A stretch of DNA of 43,939 nt from a virus. Positions 2 to 15,365 of this stretch are shown piece by piece. The notes under the pieces are model-generated. The model saw nothing but the letters and a program-made list of their open reading frames with translations, had not been told where the DNA came from and did no database searches. How positions within the stretch are numbered: the first letter of the stretch is position 1; the number at the start of each line of letters is the position of its first letter. The stretch is taken from positions 1 to 43,939 of IMG/VR virus record IMGVR_UViG_3300033571_006244. One strand, written 5' to 3'. A program made the translations under genes and the position numbers.

Positions 2-2092
2 GCCGATAATGAATGGCATTGGGAAATAGATGATCGCATTGATTACAGCAACTTTGACTTTACTTGGTTACCCGATGCATGGGACATCAAAAAAACACAT
101 TGTTTTTCCATGCGCGGAACTAAAGAATTGTGTTACACTAAACTAAAAAATTTAAAACATCATTCAACAGAAAATAAATTTTATCAAACTACTCTTACAT
201 TTAATAAAGTAGAAAAACTATATTGGCCTGACAAAATTGCGTATGAGGACATGTATGATTGGGTGTGTAAGCAGACACTCAATGATGAATGGGTTTGGAT
301 TTGTGACAACAGAGTTAATTATGAAAATTTTGATTTTAATTGGTTGCCCGATGCATGGGATAAAGACAAAATTCATTGTATCACAATGAAAAATCAAAAG
401 CAATTAAGTTACACTTGGCTAGTAAATCGTAATACGATACAAGAAAAAAACTTTAAGTATCATAGAAGTAATTTAAAATTTGCTAAAGAACAAGGCAATA
501 AAATATTTTGGCCAAACTTTCTTACTACTGTTTTATCAGGATTTGATTGGCAAGATAGTTTAGCAAATTGGGTAATTGAACAAGATTTTGAACAAGAATA
601 TGTTTGGATAGTTGATTCTAGAATCAATTATGATGAGTTTGATTTTAGTTGGTTGCCTGATGCATGGGATCGAGAATATATTCATTGTTTTTCAATGAAA
701 GATAAAAAGCAACTAAGTTATACTTGGTTAGTCAACATCAAAGCATTAAAAAACAAAAAATTCAAATATCACGAATCCAGTCTAGAATTTGTTGAATCAA
801 ATTTTGATGTAGTTCTCTTAGACATGGGTCATAATTTAGAATCTTTTCAACATTATAATAAAAAGATACGCTTTATTGGTACTATGGAAGCCATGCTGCA
901 CAGTGCAATAAAACGTGCTGATAAAGAATGGTTATATGTTATTAGTACATGTTGTAGTTATAATAACTTTAAGTTTAATTGGTTACCTGATTTAGATCAA
1001 ATTTCTTATACGCATTGTTGGCCTAGTAACGAACAAACTAAAGGCGATACCTTTTTAATACACATTCCTACTTTTTTAAGAACTAATAAATTAGATTATA
1101 ACTTTGATCATGAAAGTGTACAAAGAATAGCGTGGCCCGCAAAAGTATATTCTGAAGATAGTTTAGCAGAAGCATTAAATCTAGATAGATTGTCTAGTTT
1201 ATATGTAGTTTATTATAAACAAGATTCCATCATAAAAAAATTTCCAACTCCTTCTTTATGGGATAAGCGTCCTGTAGTTGGTATGAGTGAATGTAATAGT
1301 GTTAGTTTAGTTCCAAGAGATTGTATTGTAAAAAAAGAAATTTACGAATATCCTTATCTTGAAAGAAAAACTGATTGTGCAAAATCTTGTACCTTAGATG
1401 TTATTTTCATTCATAATGGTGAGAAAGATGCAATAGTAAATCTATCACATTGTCAAACTAATATGCCAAATGATATGACACTTAAAATTAGTAGCGGTGT
1501 AAATGGAAGATTAAAAGCATATCAAGCAGCGGCTGAACTTAGTAATGGCGATTGGTTTCTTGCAGTATTTGCCAAATGTCATGTTAAAGATAATTTTGTA
1601 GATTTCAATTGGCGCCCAGACTATTGGCAAAAACCTAAACATTATATTTTCCATAACCATAACTATGATTTGGATTTAACATATGGACATATGGCACCAA
1701 TTGCGTATAATAAAAAATTAATGTTAGAAAATAAAGGCGGACTCGATATGACGCTTGCACAAGAACACGCTGTTGTTCCTATTGTGTTAAGCGAAACAAG
1801 ATTAACTGACCCATGGGATACTTGGCGAACTGCATTTAGGGAAACAGTTAAACTTTTGTATTATTCTCAAAGTGATAATAGTATTGAATTACAATATAGA
1901 TTAGATCGTTGGTTAAATGCTCGAGATCGTTGGTCTAAACATAATCCCTGGTATCAATATGGCTCGCAAGATGCTAAAAACTTTTTTGAAAGTGTAGGCG
2001 GCGAATGGCATTGGATTATGATGACTAACGAATGGGATTGGCTAAGGAAAAAATTTAATACAATTTATGCTAAAGATAATTTAACAACTTGA
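2..2092 (+). CDS. Repeat protein of GT-A-like modules (5' end outside window)
   Basis: The reading frame is open from base 2, so the N-terminus lies off the left edge. The first ATG at 110 is internal to a repeat. At least five degenerate modules are visible. Each has an aromatic-rich block (W.W or W.Y.V), then D/N-R-x-N/D-Y, then FDF-x-WLPDAWD, a histidine-cysteine pair (IHCxxM), and a KQLSYTWLVN-like end. The last complete module (about residues 430-600 of the visible protein) looks most like a GT-A glycosyltransferase-type domain, with a D-V-I-F-I-H start, a K-A-Y-Q-A-A-AEL segment and N-G-D-W-F-L. I infer a multidomain glycosyltransferase-like or glycan-binding protein. Its 3' end overlaps the convergent aminotransferase gene by 28 bases. 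Activity is unproven, because the usual DxD is replaced in most copies. Confidence 0.75.
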   Translation, partial: ADNEWHWEIDDRIDYSNFDFTWLPDAWDIKKTHCFSMRGTKELCYTKLKNLKHHSTENKFYQTTLTFNKVEKLYWPDKIAYEDMYDWVCKQTLNDEWVWICDNRVNYENFDFNWLPDAWDKDKIHCITMKNQKQLSYTWLVNRNTIQEKNFKYHRSNLKFAKEQGNKIFWPNFLTTVLSGFDWQDSLANWVIEQDFEQEYVWIVDSRINYDEFDFSWLPDAWDREYIHCFSMKDKKQLSYTWLVNIKALKNKKFKYHESSLEFVESNFDVVLLDMGHNLESFQHYNKKIRFIGTMEAMLHSAIKRADKEWLYVISTCCSYNNFKFNWLPDLDQISYTHCWPSNEQTKGDTFLIHIPTFLRTNKLDYNFDHESVQRIAWPAKVYSEDSLAEALNLDRLSSLYVVYYKQDSIIKKFPTPSLWDKRPVVGMSECNSVSLVPRDCIVKKEIYEYPYLERKTDCAKSCTLDVIFIHNGEKDAIVNLSHCQTNMPNDMTLKISSGVNGRLKAYQAAAELSNGDWFLAVFAKCHVKDNFVDFNWRPDYWQKPKHYIFHNHNYDLDLTYGHMAPIAYNKKLMLENKGGLDMTLAQEHAVVPIVLSETRLTDPWDTWRTAFRETVKLLYYSQSDNSIELQYRLDRWLNARDRWSKHNPWYQYGSQDAKNFFESVGGEWHWIMMTNEWDWLRKKFNTIYAKDNLTT

Positions 2093-3156
2093 ATAACAGT
2101 TTCAACTTGATTAGCAGTTAAATGCCAATGATTAGGTAAACTAATACAACGTCCTGCTAAACTACTGGCTTTTGGGCAATGATCTTTATAATATGGAAAA
2201 GCTGAAAGATGATGTATGGGTTTAATATAATGACTGGCAAATTCAATACCTGCTTCGCTTAGTGCTGATCTTACGGTATCTGCATTACTTGGTGCTATCT
2301 CAAACACATAATTAGTATGAGTGCAAAGATAGTTACGTGCTGGCATTTCAACATAATTTTCTAATGCATGTCTATAATACCAACTGATTTCAGTTTTCTT
2401 ACGCATATTATCATCAAATTTTTGATATTTTACATTTAACACTGCGGCTTGTATAGCGTCAATTCTACAATTAAAACCTGATTCAACTACGTCTCCGTTT
2501 GACTCTTTGCCTTGAACTGTCCATTTTTTAAGTTGATCAACGGTATAATTCTTACTTAACACTGCACCTGCATTACCCAAAGCGCCTAAATTTTTAAGAG
2601 GATTAAAACTAAGTGCTAAACTATCGCAATAATCAATTTGATGATATTTGTCATACAATAGTTCAAAGCTTTGAGCTGCATCTATAATTAACTTTACATT
2701 GAAATAATCTGTTAACTTTTTAAATTTTTGTAAATCTGCACCTTGCCCATATAAGTCAACCAATACAACTGCTTTAATTTTATCTTTATATGTAACCAAA
2801 TATCTTTCCAAATGATCGTAATTCATTAACCATGTGTCGTCAATATCTATGCATATAGGACAATGCCCAGCAGCAACAACAGCATTTGCTGTAGCTACAT
2901 ATGTCATTGCTGGTACAGCTACTATGCTATTAAGTGGAAGATTAGCTGCTTTTAACGCAACAACTAATGCACTGGTTCCTGAATTAGTTGCAACACAAGA
3001 TGCTTTGTTGTATAAAGAACTGACCAAACTTTCAAATTTTGAAACAGCAGAATTTGCAAAGAATTGACCATCGACTGCTACCTCATGAATTGCTGTCATA
3101 ATTTCAAAACGTTGATCATCATATTGTTCTTTAAGGTTATAAAAATTAATAGACAT
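2065..3156 (-). CDS. DegT/DnrJ/EryC1-type PLP sugar aminotransferase
   Basis: A 363-aa fold-type I aminotransferase of the DegT/DnrJ/EryC1/StrS family, which transfers an amino group to keto-sugar nucleotides. The PLP site is clear: SFNPLKNLGALGNAGA carries the Schiff-base lysine (about K188), and IIDAAQSF supplies the aspartate that contacts the pyridine nitrogen (about D159). The N-terminal GTSAL loop binds phosphate. The start is placed at the ATG at 3156 (MSINFYNLK), because the longer frame adds residues unlike the family. That start overlaps the upstream epimerase gene by 11 bases, so the two are translationally coupled. Together they probably build an amino- or deoxy-sugar for virion or host-surface glycans. 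The exact sugar cannot be told. Confidence 0.9.
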   Translation of the reverse strand: MSINFYNLKEQYDDQRFEIMTAIHEVAVDGQFFANSAVSKFESLVSSLYNKASCVATNSGTSALVVALKAANLPLNSIVAVPAMTYVATANAVVAAGHCPICIDIDDTWLMNYDHLERYLVTYKDKIKAVVLVDLYGQGADLQKFKKLTDYFNVKLIIDAAQSFELLYDKYHQIDYCDSLALSFNPLKNLGALGNAGAVLSKNYTVDQLKKWTVQGKESNGDVVESGFNCRIDAIQAAVLNVKYQKFDDNMRKKTEISWYYRHALENYVEMPARNYLCTHTNYVFEIAPSNADTVRSALSEAGIEFASHYIKPIHHLSAFPYYKDHCPKASSLAGRCISLPNHWHLTANQVETVIQVVKLSLA

Positions 3157-4090
3157 GTCTATGTTTTTCAACCCATTGTATTTGAGAAGTAAGACCTTGA
3201 AGCAAGTCAATCTTGGGTCTATATCCTAAATTAATTGCTTTGGTTATATCTAAAGCACCGCGCTGCGGCATATTTAGATCAGGTGTTTTTTTATATATTA
3301 GTTCACTTTTGCACCCAGGAATTAAATGTTTAATTAATAATGCAGTTTCCCCAAGACTTCTAGCTTGTCCAAAAGTAACATTATATGTTTCACCAGACTG
3401 CCCCTCTTCTTCAATTTGTTTAATGCCGTTAACTAAATCATTGACATGTGTAAAATCTAATAGATTAGAAGGGTCGTCGATTTCAATTGGGTAATTGTCT
3501 AATGCACTTAAAATCCATTTATTAATAACTCTATCTTGATTATCTCCTGCTCCATATACAGCACTGGGTCTAATATTAATTGTATTAGGATTTTCAAACT
3601 TTGCTATTTCTTCGCATTGTTTTTTTAATAAACCGTATAAATTAATTGGTGATAACTGCGAATCTTCTTTTTGCTTATTGCTAGTAAAATTTCCATAAAC
3701 CATACTACTACTAACGTTAATAAATCTAACACCCAGTTCTTTAGCTAAAGATGCCAATGAGTAAGTATTCATTGGCATTGTTGATATTGCAGAATATGTA
3801 TCTTTTGATACCGATGCTTGATTAGGAAAACTAGCTAGATGTATAATACTTCTAGGTGGCATGCTAGATTTGATACTTTCTTTTATTTTAAACTTACTGC
3901 TACAACTAGAATTTATCAAGTGTGCTCGTTTATTATCTAGATATTCTAGACGATATTTGGTTAATACAGCATGATTGTAATGTGTGGATAAGTTATCTAC
4001 TATAGATACAGAAAATCCATCGTCTAAATAAAGTTTGGCTAGGTGATGTCCAATAAATCCAACACCACCGGTAATAATTACGTGTTTCAT
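3146..4090 (-). CDS. NAD-dependent sugar epimerase/dehydratase (extended SDR)
   Basis: A 314-aa extended short-chain dehydrogenase/reductase of the nucleotide-sugar epimerase/dehydratase class. The N-terminal Rossmann motif TGGVGFIGHHLA (residues 7-18) is intact. An acidic residue in IVDNLS (about residue 32) predicts NAD preference. The catalytic Y-x-x-x-K is in NLYGLLKKQ, with VSSSMVYG before it. The length matches the family. The start ATG at 4090 overlaps the stop of thyA in an ATGA, and the gene is followed by the sugar aminotransferase, so it is read in one operon with ThyA and DHFR upstream. Substrate is unknown: UDP-glucose/galactose-type epimerase or a dehydratase are both possible. 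Confidence 0.9.
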   Translation of the reverse strand: MKHVIITGGVGFIGHHLAKLYLDDGFSVSIVDNLSTHYNHAVLTKYRLEYLDNKRAHLINSSCSSKFKIKESIKSSMPPRSIIHLASFPNQASVSKDTYSAISTMPMNTYSLASLAKELGVRFINVSSSMVYGNFTSNKQKEDSQLSPINLYGLLKKQCEEIAKFENPNTINIRPSAVYGAGDNQDRVINKWILSALDNYPIEIDDPSNLLDFTHVNDLVNGIKQIEEEGQSGETYNVTFGQARSLGETALLIKHLIPGCKSELIYKKTPDLNMPQRGALDITKAINLGYRPKIDLLQGLTSQIQWVEKHRHVY

Positions 4091-7299: not shown

Positions 7300-7953
7300 T
7301 TAATTTAGCATCAATTGATCCACGAAGTCTAATAAAAATTTGTGATGTCTGTGTTCATGCCAATCTTTTTGTATGTATGGATACATGTCATACCAAAACT
7401 TTTCGCTTTCAGGGTGACACCCAATAATACCAATATTGTTTTGTATCACAGCCATTGCATCACCGTTTTTATATCGTGCTATGACTTTATATTTGGCTGA
7501 GCTATCAGTTTCTATAATAGCACTGCCATCATAAAAGAACATACGATCTTGGCTATTGTCCTGATAGGTTATGTCAGCAACGGTTCCGTAAGGTCTTCGT
7601 ATCTCGGCGCTGGGCCGTTGGATATATTGCACACAATCAAGTCCTTCGAGGATGTCGAAATAGTTAGAACCTGTCCAGTAGGCTCCCATACATATACCGA
7701 GATACTTGCCCCCGTTAGCCAAAAACGCTGCCACAGCATTCGCATGCCGTCTTTTGAAGAAACTGTAGAATGAGTCTGAGTCACCTATACCTCCTGGAAA
7801 CGCAACACAATCATATGATTGAAATTTAAAATCTTGGAAATCATCAACTGACAGTATATCAACTTGGTACTTTGGAGTGAGTGCAGCAATCATCCCGTCG
7901 CAACATTGCGTAGAACATTCTGGGTGATGTTGAAATAATGCTATCTTTGGCAC
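7300..7953 (-). CDS. Class I glutamine amidotransferase-like protein (BPL_N type)
   Basis: A 217-aa protein with the flavodoxin-like class I glutamine amidotransferase fold, closest in style to the biotin-protein-ligase N-terminal (BPL_N) branch. The triad is intact: the nucleophile elbow GICMGAY (about C88), and a His/Glu pair in GCHPESEKF (about H180 and E182). FPGGIGDSDSF forms the oxyanion-side loop. It starts at GTG 7953; the codon before it is a stop, so no longer start exists. Such proteins can release ammonia from glutamine for a partner enzyme, or act as a hydrolase. No synthetase partner is adjacent. In a 7-deazaguanine phage an amidation role is conceivable but unproven. Confidence 0.8.
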   Translation of the reverse strand: MPKIALFQHHPECSTQCCDGMIAALTPKYQVDILSVDDFQDFKFQSYDCVAFPGGIGDSDSFYSFFKRRHANAVAAFLANGGKYLGICMGAYWTGSNYFDILEGLDCVQYIQRPSAEIRRPYGTVADITYQDNSQDRMFFYDGSAIIETDSSAKYKVIARYKNGDAMAVIQNNIGIIGCHPESEKFWYDMYPYIQKDWHEHRHHKFLLDFVDQLMLN

Positions 7954-7964
7954 TCATCTACTTA

Positions 7965-8096
7965 TCTAAAAGCGGCAGGGTTCCCACCTGCCACAGGGTT
8001 TGATCACCACCCCTAGTCCCCCACCGGTTGGAATGCTATCACTACGCTTACCGACCTTGTACACTAGGTGCGTAGTTATAGGGGGCTGTCGCATTC
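7965..8096 (-). ncRNA. Candidate structured RNA downstream of the CUA tRNA
   Basis: The 130 bases between the tRNA 3' end and the amidotransferase gene are GC-richer than their surroundings and can fold extensively. Visible pairings: GAATGC (8096-8091) with GCATTC (8036-8031); inside it ACTACGC with GCGTAGT (8076-8070 with 8047-8041); a small ACCT/AGGT hairpin inside that; a run of five G (8081-8085 on plus) that could pair with C-runs at 8010-8013 or 8018-8022, making a pseudoknot; and the 3' hairpin at 7974-7992. I recognise no known RNA family. The one long frame across it runs through the tRNA and is not credible. Confidence 0.45.
7969..7992 (-). terminator. Rho-independent-like terminator after the tRNA/ncRNA
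   Basis: On the minus strand GGCAGG and CCTGCC (7992-7987 and 7979-7974) form a 6-bp GC stem with a 7-base loop, followed by GCTTTTAG. The T-run is short, so termination may be partial. Its place would end a transcript covering the VWA gene, the CUA tRNA and the structured RNA. Confidence 0.5.
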
Positions 8097-8168
8097 TGGT
8101 GCCTGGAGTGGGAATTGAACCCACCCTCGCAGTTTTAGAGGCTGCTAGTTCTCCACGAACATCCAAGC
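8097..8168 (-). tRNA. Suppressor tRNA, anticodon CUA, pyrrolysine-tRNA-like shape
   Basis: A 72-nt cloverleaf with encoded CCA. The acceptor stem GCTTGGA/TCCAGGC pairs fully, with one G-T. One base (T8) joins it to a 4-bp D stem GTTC/GAAC with a 5-base loop GTGGA. One base then leads into the anticodon arm. The anticodon loop is CTCTAAA, giving anticodon CUA, which reads UAG. The variable region is 3 bases if a 6-bp anticodon stem is counted. The T arm is GTGGG-TTCAATT-CCCAC, and the discriminator base is A. Element lengths match Methanosarcina tRNA-Pyl (from memory): single base 8, 5-base D loop, 6-position anticodon stem, 3-base variable loop and the same CTCTAAA loop. Weak points are mismatches at both ends of the anticodon stem (A-G and C-A). 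The gene starts 2 bases after the VWA stop codon, so the two are probably cotranscribed. The amino acid is unknown, and no PylRS is seen here. Confidence 0.75.
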
Positions 8169-8169
8169 A

Positions 8170-9432
8170 TTAGTCATTGTCATAATATGTAAACCTACCG
8201 AATGGAGGTTGAATATCTTTATTATAACGATTGTTGATGATCCAAACTGTATCACAATAGTTAGGATCTCCCCAATCTCCCCAAACTTCACCATCAGTAA
8301 AGTTAATCAGCAATTTAGGTTCAACATCATTTTCCTTCATCCAATGCCAACTGACAGCAGCATCAGTACCGCCAAAGCCTGCAAGTTCATATTCACCTAA
8401 GGTAATTGAACCATGAGGGGTAAACTCTTCAGGATTATGAACAGCAGTATCCCAACACCAAACTTTGATCTTGTAGTCGGGAAACTGATCCATAATACCT
8501 TGCACTTCACTAAAGAAGTCCCGGGCCATTTCATCAGTAATTGAACCTGAAGTATCAATAGCAATGCAAATATCAATGCTGTCTTCCTTCAACATGCTGG
8601 GCAATGTAAACCCATTGCTGAAGTTCTTGCGACTGGGCATAGTCCAGGTGTAGTTGTTCTTAACCGTGCTTTGGATCTGCTGACGAATAAATTCACGCCA
8701 GTCAATCTTAGGCTCGGTAAGATCCTTAAGCATACGCTTGAGACCTCCAGGCAAGTTACCTGCACCAGCAGCTTGCGCGGCACTGAGCATAGCTTCTTTG
8801 AACTCGTCCTTAATCTGTTGACGTTCAGCATCACTTAGCTTAGGACGACCTTTGCCCTTACCTTCGTTTTCGCTGTCACCATTACCGTCACCATCATCTT
8901 CAAGATGATCGTCCAAAAGCATTTCAGCAAGTTCTTCTAGCGTAACTTCCTTAACATTTTTCATAAGGTCGTCATAAACAGCTTCCCAAGTCCATCCTTC
9001 ATATTTGCGATCATAAAGGACAGGCACTACTGTAATTTTTTCACCAAGACCATTGTTAATACAATCAGCGTTAACAACATAGTCCATAGCAATATTAGCA
9101 ATTTTACGATTTCTGTTTCCATTACGGCTCATGTGATCATATGCACAATGCAACAGTTCATGACAGAACAGAAACATTAGCTGCCGAGTATTGAGCATTA
9201 GAATGAATTTTGAATTGTAATAGAAATGACGACCGTCAGTAGCAGCCGTCTCACACCAAGTGTCAGCATTAACCAACTTGAGTCGCATGGCAAGATTGCC
9301 AAAAAATCCATGCTTTAGAACCAATGCAACACGAGCACCCAATATAGCTTGACGAGCCTGTTCATCTAGAACGGGATCAATTTTTTCAACAATGCGGGAC
9401 TTTTGAGCATTTTTGGGTATTGGGGTGGACAT
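8170..9432 (-). CDS. Metallopeptidase-like plus VWA-domain protein (DUF2201 type)
   Basis: A 420-aa two-domain protein. The N-terminal part carries a zinc metallopeptidase-like HELLH (about residues 91-95) followed by a histidine in AYDHMS. The middle (about 165-235) is acidic, then basic and low-complexity. The C-terminal part is a von Willebrand A-like domain with the MIDAS motif DTSGS (about 293-297). This is the DUF2201 arrangement, which elsewhere partners a MoxR ATPase; such a gene is at 11562-12692. The start is ATG 9432 (MSTPIPKN), preceded by CGGAGATATCCAA. The longer frame to 9483 would run through the promoter. The pair may remodel or insert metal into a protein complex; the target is unknown. 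Confidence 0.88.
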   Translation of the reverse strand: MSTPIPKNAQKSRIVEKIDPVLDEQARQAILGARVALVLKHGFFGNLAMRLKLVNADTWCETAATDGRHFYYNSKFILMLNTRQLMFLFCHELLHCAYDHMSRNGNRNRKIANIAMDYVVNADCINNGLGEKITVVPVLYDRKYEGWTWEAVYDDLMKNVKEVTLEELAEMLLDDHLEDDGDGNGDSENEGKGKGRPKLSDAERQQIKDEFKEAMLSAAQAAGAGNLPGGLKRMLKDLTEPKIDWREFIRQQIQSTVKNNYTWTMPSRKNFSNGFTLPSMLKEDSIDICIAIDTSGSITDEMARDFFSEVQGIMDQFPDYKIKVWCWDTAVHNPEEFTPHGSITLGEYELAGFGGTDAAVSWHWMKENDVEPKLLINFTDGEVWGDWGDPNYCDTVWIINNRYNKDIQPPFGRFTYYDND

Positions 9433-9455
9433 TTGGATATCTCCGTTATATGTAT

Positions 9456-9483
9456 ATATTAGCACCGCTAGCATATAAGTCAA
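9456..9483 (-). promoter_or_regulatory. Promoter for the VWA gene and CUA tRNA
   Basis: TTGACT (9483-9478) and TAATAT (9461-9456) with a 16-base spacer, read on the minus strand. The expected start is near 9449, giving a short leader with GGAG before ATG 9432. The same TTGAC-N16-TATTAT-like layout recurs upstream of six or more minus-strand genes here. The plus-strand gene at 9517 diverges from it. Confidence 0.6.
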
Positions 9484-15290: not shown

Positions 15291-15365
15291 TGGAGCGGGC
15301 GATCGGGATCGAACCGACGACATTCTGCTTGGAAGGCAGAAGCTCTACCTCTGAGCTACACCCGC
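15291..15365 (-). tRNA. tRNA-Gly (anticodon UCC)
   Basis: A canonical 75-nt cloverleaf including encoded CCA. The acceptor is GCGGGTG/CGCCCGC, the D arm GCTC-AGAGGTA-GAGC, the anticodon arm TTCTGC-CTTCCAA-GCAGAA with anticodon TCC, and the T arm GTCGG-TTCGATC-CCGAT. Unlike the CUA tRNA, every element has ordinary length. It would read GGA/GGG glycine codons, GGA being common in AT-rich phage genes. Confidence 0.96.

Follow-up and report, generated by a model that had tools for sequence, protein, structure and literature searches.

The phage sequence analysed here contains a compact tRNA gene with the anticodon CUA. The best explanation, with a probability of about 0.78, is a phage amber-suppressor tRNA with a core that convergence, not descent, has reduced to tRNA-Pyl-like dimensions. 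Membership in tRNA-Pyl is not supported. Judged from its sequence features, the tRNA likely works as an amber suppressor.

The tRNA gene and its locus

The gene occupies 8097-8168 of the window, the complete 43.9-kb IMG/VR record, and is encoded on the minus strand. It comprises 72 nt with an encoded CCA and was defined by Rfam RF00005, syntenic homologues and covariation (tRNA position p corresponds to window 8169-p). The 5' acceptor strand GCTTGGA is followed by a T, the single base between acceptor stem and D stem. The D arm (8148-8160, minus strand) has a 4-bp stem, GTTC/GAAC, and a 5-nt loop, GTGGA, with the GG motif. After a further T, the six stem positions AGCAGC and ACTGCG flank the symmetric loop CTCTAAA, which has the anticodon CUA for UAG in its centre (8136-8138, minus strand). 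Only 4 bp form in the anticodon arm (8129-8145, minus strand): the 31:39 pair is a C.A mismatch and the outer A.G is also unpaired. AGG leads to the T arm (8108-8124, minus strand), with the 5-bp stem GTGGG/CCCAC and the canonical loop TTCAATT. The molecule is completed by TCCAGGC, the discriminator A73 and CCA. The D and T loops are invariant in the four homologues known. The minus-strand sequence bears out the element lengths, CUA anticodon and encoded CCA described in the sequence-only reading, and also the weak points named there, A73 and an anticodon stem mismatched at either end.

The Rfam tRNA covariance model, proposed as a check, scored the window tRNA at 33.5 bits, which exceeds the cut-off of 29. 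The E value was 0.0024 for all Rfam families and the whole window and 5.7e-7 for the tRNA family alone. The tRNA-Gly at 15291 had been chosen as an ordinary comparison and is one, with 68.2 bits in Rfam. ARAGORN, also proposed, gave a divided answer: the window copy was not called as a tRNA, but the same tool called its three syntenic homologues tRNA-Pyl(cta). This label stands for the anticodon CUA and nothing more. The three homologues reach 42-44 bits in Rfam.

Upstream on the same strand, a gene for a DUF2201 metallopeptidase/VWA protein (8170-9483, minus strand; Pfam PF13203/PF09967, synteny) ends 1 nt before the tRNA, and the spacing is close in relatives too. A BPL_N/GATase-like gene (7300-7953, minus strand; Pfam PF09825) is located downstream. 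A scan of IMG/VR with the DUF2201 protein yielded 37 relatives. The three closest, L003-L005 with 73-78% identity, have the same tRNA directly after the gene, and the compact CUA tRNA is kept at one locus in at least four related phages. ARAGORN found no tRNA at the remaining DUF2201 loci (≤65% identity). Homologues of the window tRNA excepted, the GTGGA-pattern matches L106-L126 had no tRNA fold. In the window, a GC-rich stretch of ~140 nt (7957-8096) separates the tRNA from the next gene and has a terminator-like hairpin at its end. It is apparently missing from L003-L005, had no Rfam match and folds no better than shuffled sequences (z = -0.06). The DUF2201 gene ends with TAG in L005 (L005:9953-11275) and with TAA in the window, L003 and L004.

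The window DNA polymerase is nearest to those of the jumbo phages Phosso (469 kb) and Atu_ph07 (490 kb), followed by Rak2-like phages. Most of the phage genome is therefore probably missing from the record. All four tRNA-bearing contigs are fragments of 44-123 kb, and the genomes of their relatives reach 340-490 kb.

Selection on the tRNA and stop codon usage

All pairs of the acceptor, D and T stems form in each of the four aligned sequences. Compensatory changes are present in all four helices, with both sides changed in eight pairs. The observed covariation was reached in 0 of 500 shuffles and was lost when pairing partners were slid. Because of the compensatory changes in all four helices, the tRNA is an RNA under selection; chance or decay is excluded. 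The window copy has several compensated changes of its own in the acceptor, D and T stems and is therefore not simply decaying. The encoded CCA and the anticodon loop are invariant in the four phages.

Stop codons were counted in ORFs of at least 100 aa. TAG ends 17 of 237 in the four contigs; sister loci that lack the tRNA have 19 of 346 (Fisher p = 0.48). With TAG no rarer than in these sisters, codon usage bears no footprint of an active suppressor. A search for TAG-merged genes in the window gave no convincing readthrough merge. In tblastn, none of the 21 TAG-ended ORFs in the four contigs had a convincing conserved coding extension. Recoding by code 15 (TAG = Gln) was considered and rejected: conserved genes had no convincing in-frame TAG, and TAG still serves as a rare stop. 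XacN1 and zeta crAss-like phages are known from publications to have suppressor tRNAs but no evident recoding; for the latter, it was proposed that the suppressor tRNA counteracts host defence gene expression. The DegT aminotransferase gene of the window (2065-3210) does not end with TAG. Its homologues in L003, L004 and L005 have TAG, four codons and then TAA.

Stop codon usage without a footprint would also suit a decaying or non-translational tRNA, such as a remnant, a decoy that anticodon nucleases would attack or a signal for mRNA processing downstream of the DUF2201 gene. The omission of the window copy by ARAGORN, its 33.5 bits in Rfam versus 42-44 in the relatives, A73, the C.A and A.G mismatches and the location only 1 nt after a gene point in the same direction. 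Such a tRNA is nevertheless unlikely in view of the compensatory changes in acceptor, D and T stems, several of them found in the window copy only, and of a CCA end and anticodon loop that are unchanged across four phages.

Comparison with tRNA-Pyl and search for synthetases

The sequence-only reading had offered two origins, a relative of tRNA-Pyl or a convergently shrunken amber suppressor. tRNA-Pyl is defined by a 6-bp anticodon stem, a 5-nt D loop, a 3-nt variable loop, one base between acceptor and D stems and the absence of G18G19 and TPsiC (PMC3941956, PMC7609411). G73 and G1:C72 are universal identity elements (PMC7609411). The tRNAs of the window clade have CUA, the one-base linker, the 5-nt D loop and G1:C72 in all four copies. 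Their variable loop has 3 nt on a count of six stem positions and 4 unpaired nt by the pairs that form. The 6-bp anticodon stem is absent in all four: columns 23-41 and 28-36 are both unpaired, leaving 4 bp. An anticodon stem is also broken in the tRNA-Pyl of Methanomassiliicoccales (PMC3941956), thus a broken stem alone cannot exclude Pyl. All four have GTGGA with GG in the D loop and TTCAATT with TTC in the T loop, unlike characterised tRNA-Pyl; GG and TTC are missing from the tRNA-Pyl of M. barkeri and D. hafniense (PMC7609411). The discriminator is A73 in the window copy and G73 in L003-L005. The CTCTAAA loop, previously taken as a mark of Pyl, loses this meaning, as many ordinary phage CUA tRNAs have the same loop.

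Sequence similarity was ranked with the M. mazei tRNA-Pyl (sequence from PMC5207767) as the sole tRNA-Pyl. Its ungapped match with the window clade covers 39-42 of 72 positions; with L189, a compact tRNA of a mycobacteriophage-like contig, it covers 36. By global alignment score, its rank beside 76 ordinary phage CUA tRNAs is 41 for L003, 38 for L004 and 44 for L005. The score of the window copy, 39, is below those of L003-L005. By these alignments, the window tRNA is not nearer to the M. mazei tRNA-Pyl than to a typical ordinary phage CUA tRNA.

A search for pylS, suggested together with the tRNA-Pyl reading, gave no match in the four contig fragments: the profile PylS_Cterm (TIGR02367) did not match the window or its three relatives (316 kb in all). 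The M. mazei PylRS domain, checked against the PDB, served as a second query. It had no match in 50,697 phage records or in IMG/VR, in a scan sensitive to close relatives. Genes for release factors and Gln/Glu-type synthetases were not found in the four fragments and three larger relatives. One candidate phage PylRS, a PF01409 match beside the CUA tRNA of Phosso, was rejected. The protein (PV764938.1 172390-173142; L277:6391-7143) is a minimal class II aminoacyl-tRNA synthetase core of ~250 aa, GlyRS-like and encoded ~330 nt after the CUA tRNA. Homologues are present in XbC2, Caulobacter and Brevundimonas jumbo phages and two uncultured phages of ~635 kb; at the loci inspected, no CUA tRNA is adjacent. 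The core is absent from the window-clade sequences, which are fragments.

A true tRNA-Pyl relative, supplied by the phage as extra tRNA-Pyl to a Pyl-using bacterial host or served by pylS in the unassembled part of genomes known from 44-123 kb, could account for the matching element lengths, CUA, G1:C72 in four and G73 in three of four copies and the ARAGORN label on L003-L005, but is very improbable given the missing 6-bp stem in all four, the retained G18G19 and TTC, A73 in the window copy, no excess similarity to M. mazei tRNA-Pyl and no PylRS in the four contigs or the 50,697 phage records.

Compact CUA tRNAs and the proposed function

Convergent shrinkage, the other origin offered, is supported by the distribution of phage CUA tRNAs: ordinary-sized ones are common and compact forms recur in mycobacteriophages. 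In the IMG/VR pattern scan, CUA tRNAs were common in phages among the matches listed. Jumbo relatives of the window phage also have ordinary-sized ones. A 2-nt linker and a D loop of 7-11 nt were found in 67 of 76 distinct phage CUA tRNAs. Compact forms occur in the window clade, L189, Phabba and Myrna; L168 is a further short one. The gene in Phabba (gene 91, L269:4922-4992) was deposited as tRNA-Arg(tct) and that in Myrna (gene 86, L270:5523-5594) as tRNA-Ser, while ARAGORN calls both CUA tRNAs. Phabba and Myrna infect M. smegmatis, and a paper of 2018 states that pyrrolysine had not yet been reported in Mycobacterium (PMC5966550). The presence of the compact shape in mycobacteriophages, where Pyl is not expected, argues for convergence. 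Novelty in a T4-like phage had been claimed for either origin. Only the compact shape is new in this sense; earlier reports on T4-like jumbo phages already include CUA tRNAs with the label tRNA-Pyl or suppressor.

The 31:39 pair is broken in 7 of 8 compact versus 5 of 68 ordinary CUA tRNAs (Fisher p about 6e-6, computed with 6 of 68), in a sample that was gathered by pattern searches and represents only two or three independent lineages. The link between compact CUA tRNAs and the broken pair is a lead. The conserved loop-proximal mismatch would shorten the stem to 4 bp and open a flexible loop of 9 nt. In some protists, a shortened anticodon stem of tRNA-Trp permits UGA reading (PMC13092985). 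By analogy, the 31:39 mismatch may make suppression more efficient or decoding less strict; such an effect has been proposed for tRNAs with a 4-bp stem. An effect on UAG or UAA reading like that of the shortened-stem tRNA-Trp is a conjecture.

The suppressor tRNA would be transcribed together with or after the DUF2201 gene and then processed. It is probably loaded with an ordinary amino acid by a host synthetase. Glutamine is a weak first guess, based on G73 in three homologues and the phage precedent of code 15. During infection, the charged tRNA would compete with release factor 1 at UAG. Phage genes, mostly ended by TAA or TGA, would be little harmed by suppression, and UAG-ended genes of the host or of rival elements would suffer readthrough. 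A more far-reaching possibility is that compact CUA tRNAs in which the 31:39 pair is broken form a class that phages have evolved repeatedly by convergence, with a flexible anticodon arm that widens decoding to UAG and perhaps UAA and reprogrammes termination in the infected cell, or with charging by a still unseen phage synthetase. This idea is speculative and unlikely.

Dimensions of tRNA-Pyl and a CUA anticodon are insufficient for calling a tRNA-Pyl, a label that automatic annotation has given to many phage tRNAs. Natural compact tRNAs, predicted to be suppressors and selected in phages without code reassignment, raise the question of what phages gain from reading UAG. They also provide material for asking how far a tRNA core can shrink.

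Comparison with known tRNAs

The tRNA-Pyl of M. mazei, M. barkeri and D. hafniense resembles the window tRNA in one-base linker, 5-nt D loop, CUA and G1:C72. It differs by a 6-bp anticodon stem, the lack of GG and TTC and its service by PylRS. The CUA tRNAs of the jumbo phages CBB, pEa_SNUABM_12, BF, XbC2 and Phosso share CUA, the loop CTCTAAA and the canonical T loop, but their linker is 2 nt long, their D loop 7-9 nt, their variable region longer and their 5-bp anticodon stem uninterrupted. They belong to the type that papers have listed as tRNA-Pyl, and their shape is ordinary. The ordinary CUA tRNAs of Rak2-like phages (L087, L097, L099, L089) have retained two neighbouring mismatches in the acceptor stem, T.C/T.T at 4-69 and 5-68; in Phosso, T.T/T.T are located at 3-70 and 4-69. 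These mismatches are possible identity anti-determinants. XacN1 and RsoM2USA also have CUA suppressor tRNAs, a likeness taken from published descriptions.

Phabba, Myrna and L189 are like the window tRNA in the compact D arm, the mismatched 31:39 pair and the 21 nt from acceptor stem to anticodon loop. Their mismatch is C.C, in comparison to A.A or C.A in the window clade, and they have no close sequence relationship to it. Phabba and Myrna also keep five other stem pairs and have longer variable regions. The tRNA-Trp reading UGA is a further stop-codon-reading tRNA with a shortened anticodon stem (PMC13092985); it is another isoacceptor for another codon, and the likeness lies in stem length. 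A convergent precedent is the type I mitochondrial tRNA-Ser(UCN), which has tRNA-Pyl-like dimensions with G18G19 and TTC kept (PMC7609411). This tRNA shares the 1-nt linker, the small D loop and the short variable arm with the window tRNA and differs by its 6-bp anticodon stem, its UCN codons and its mitochondrial location.
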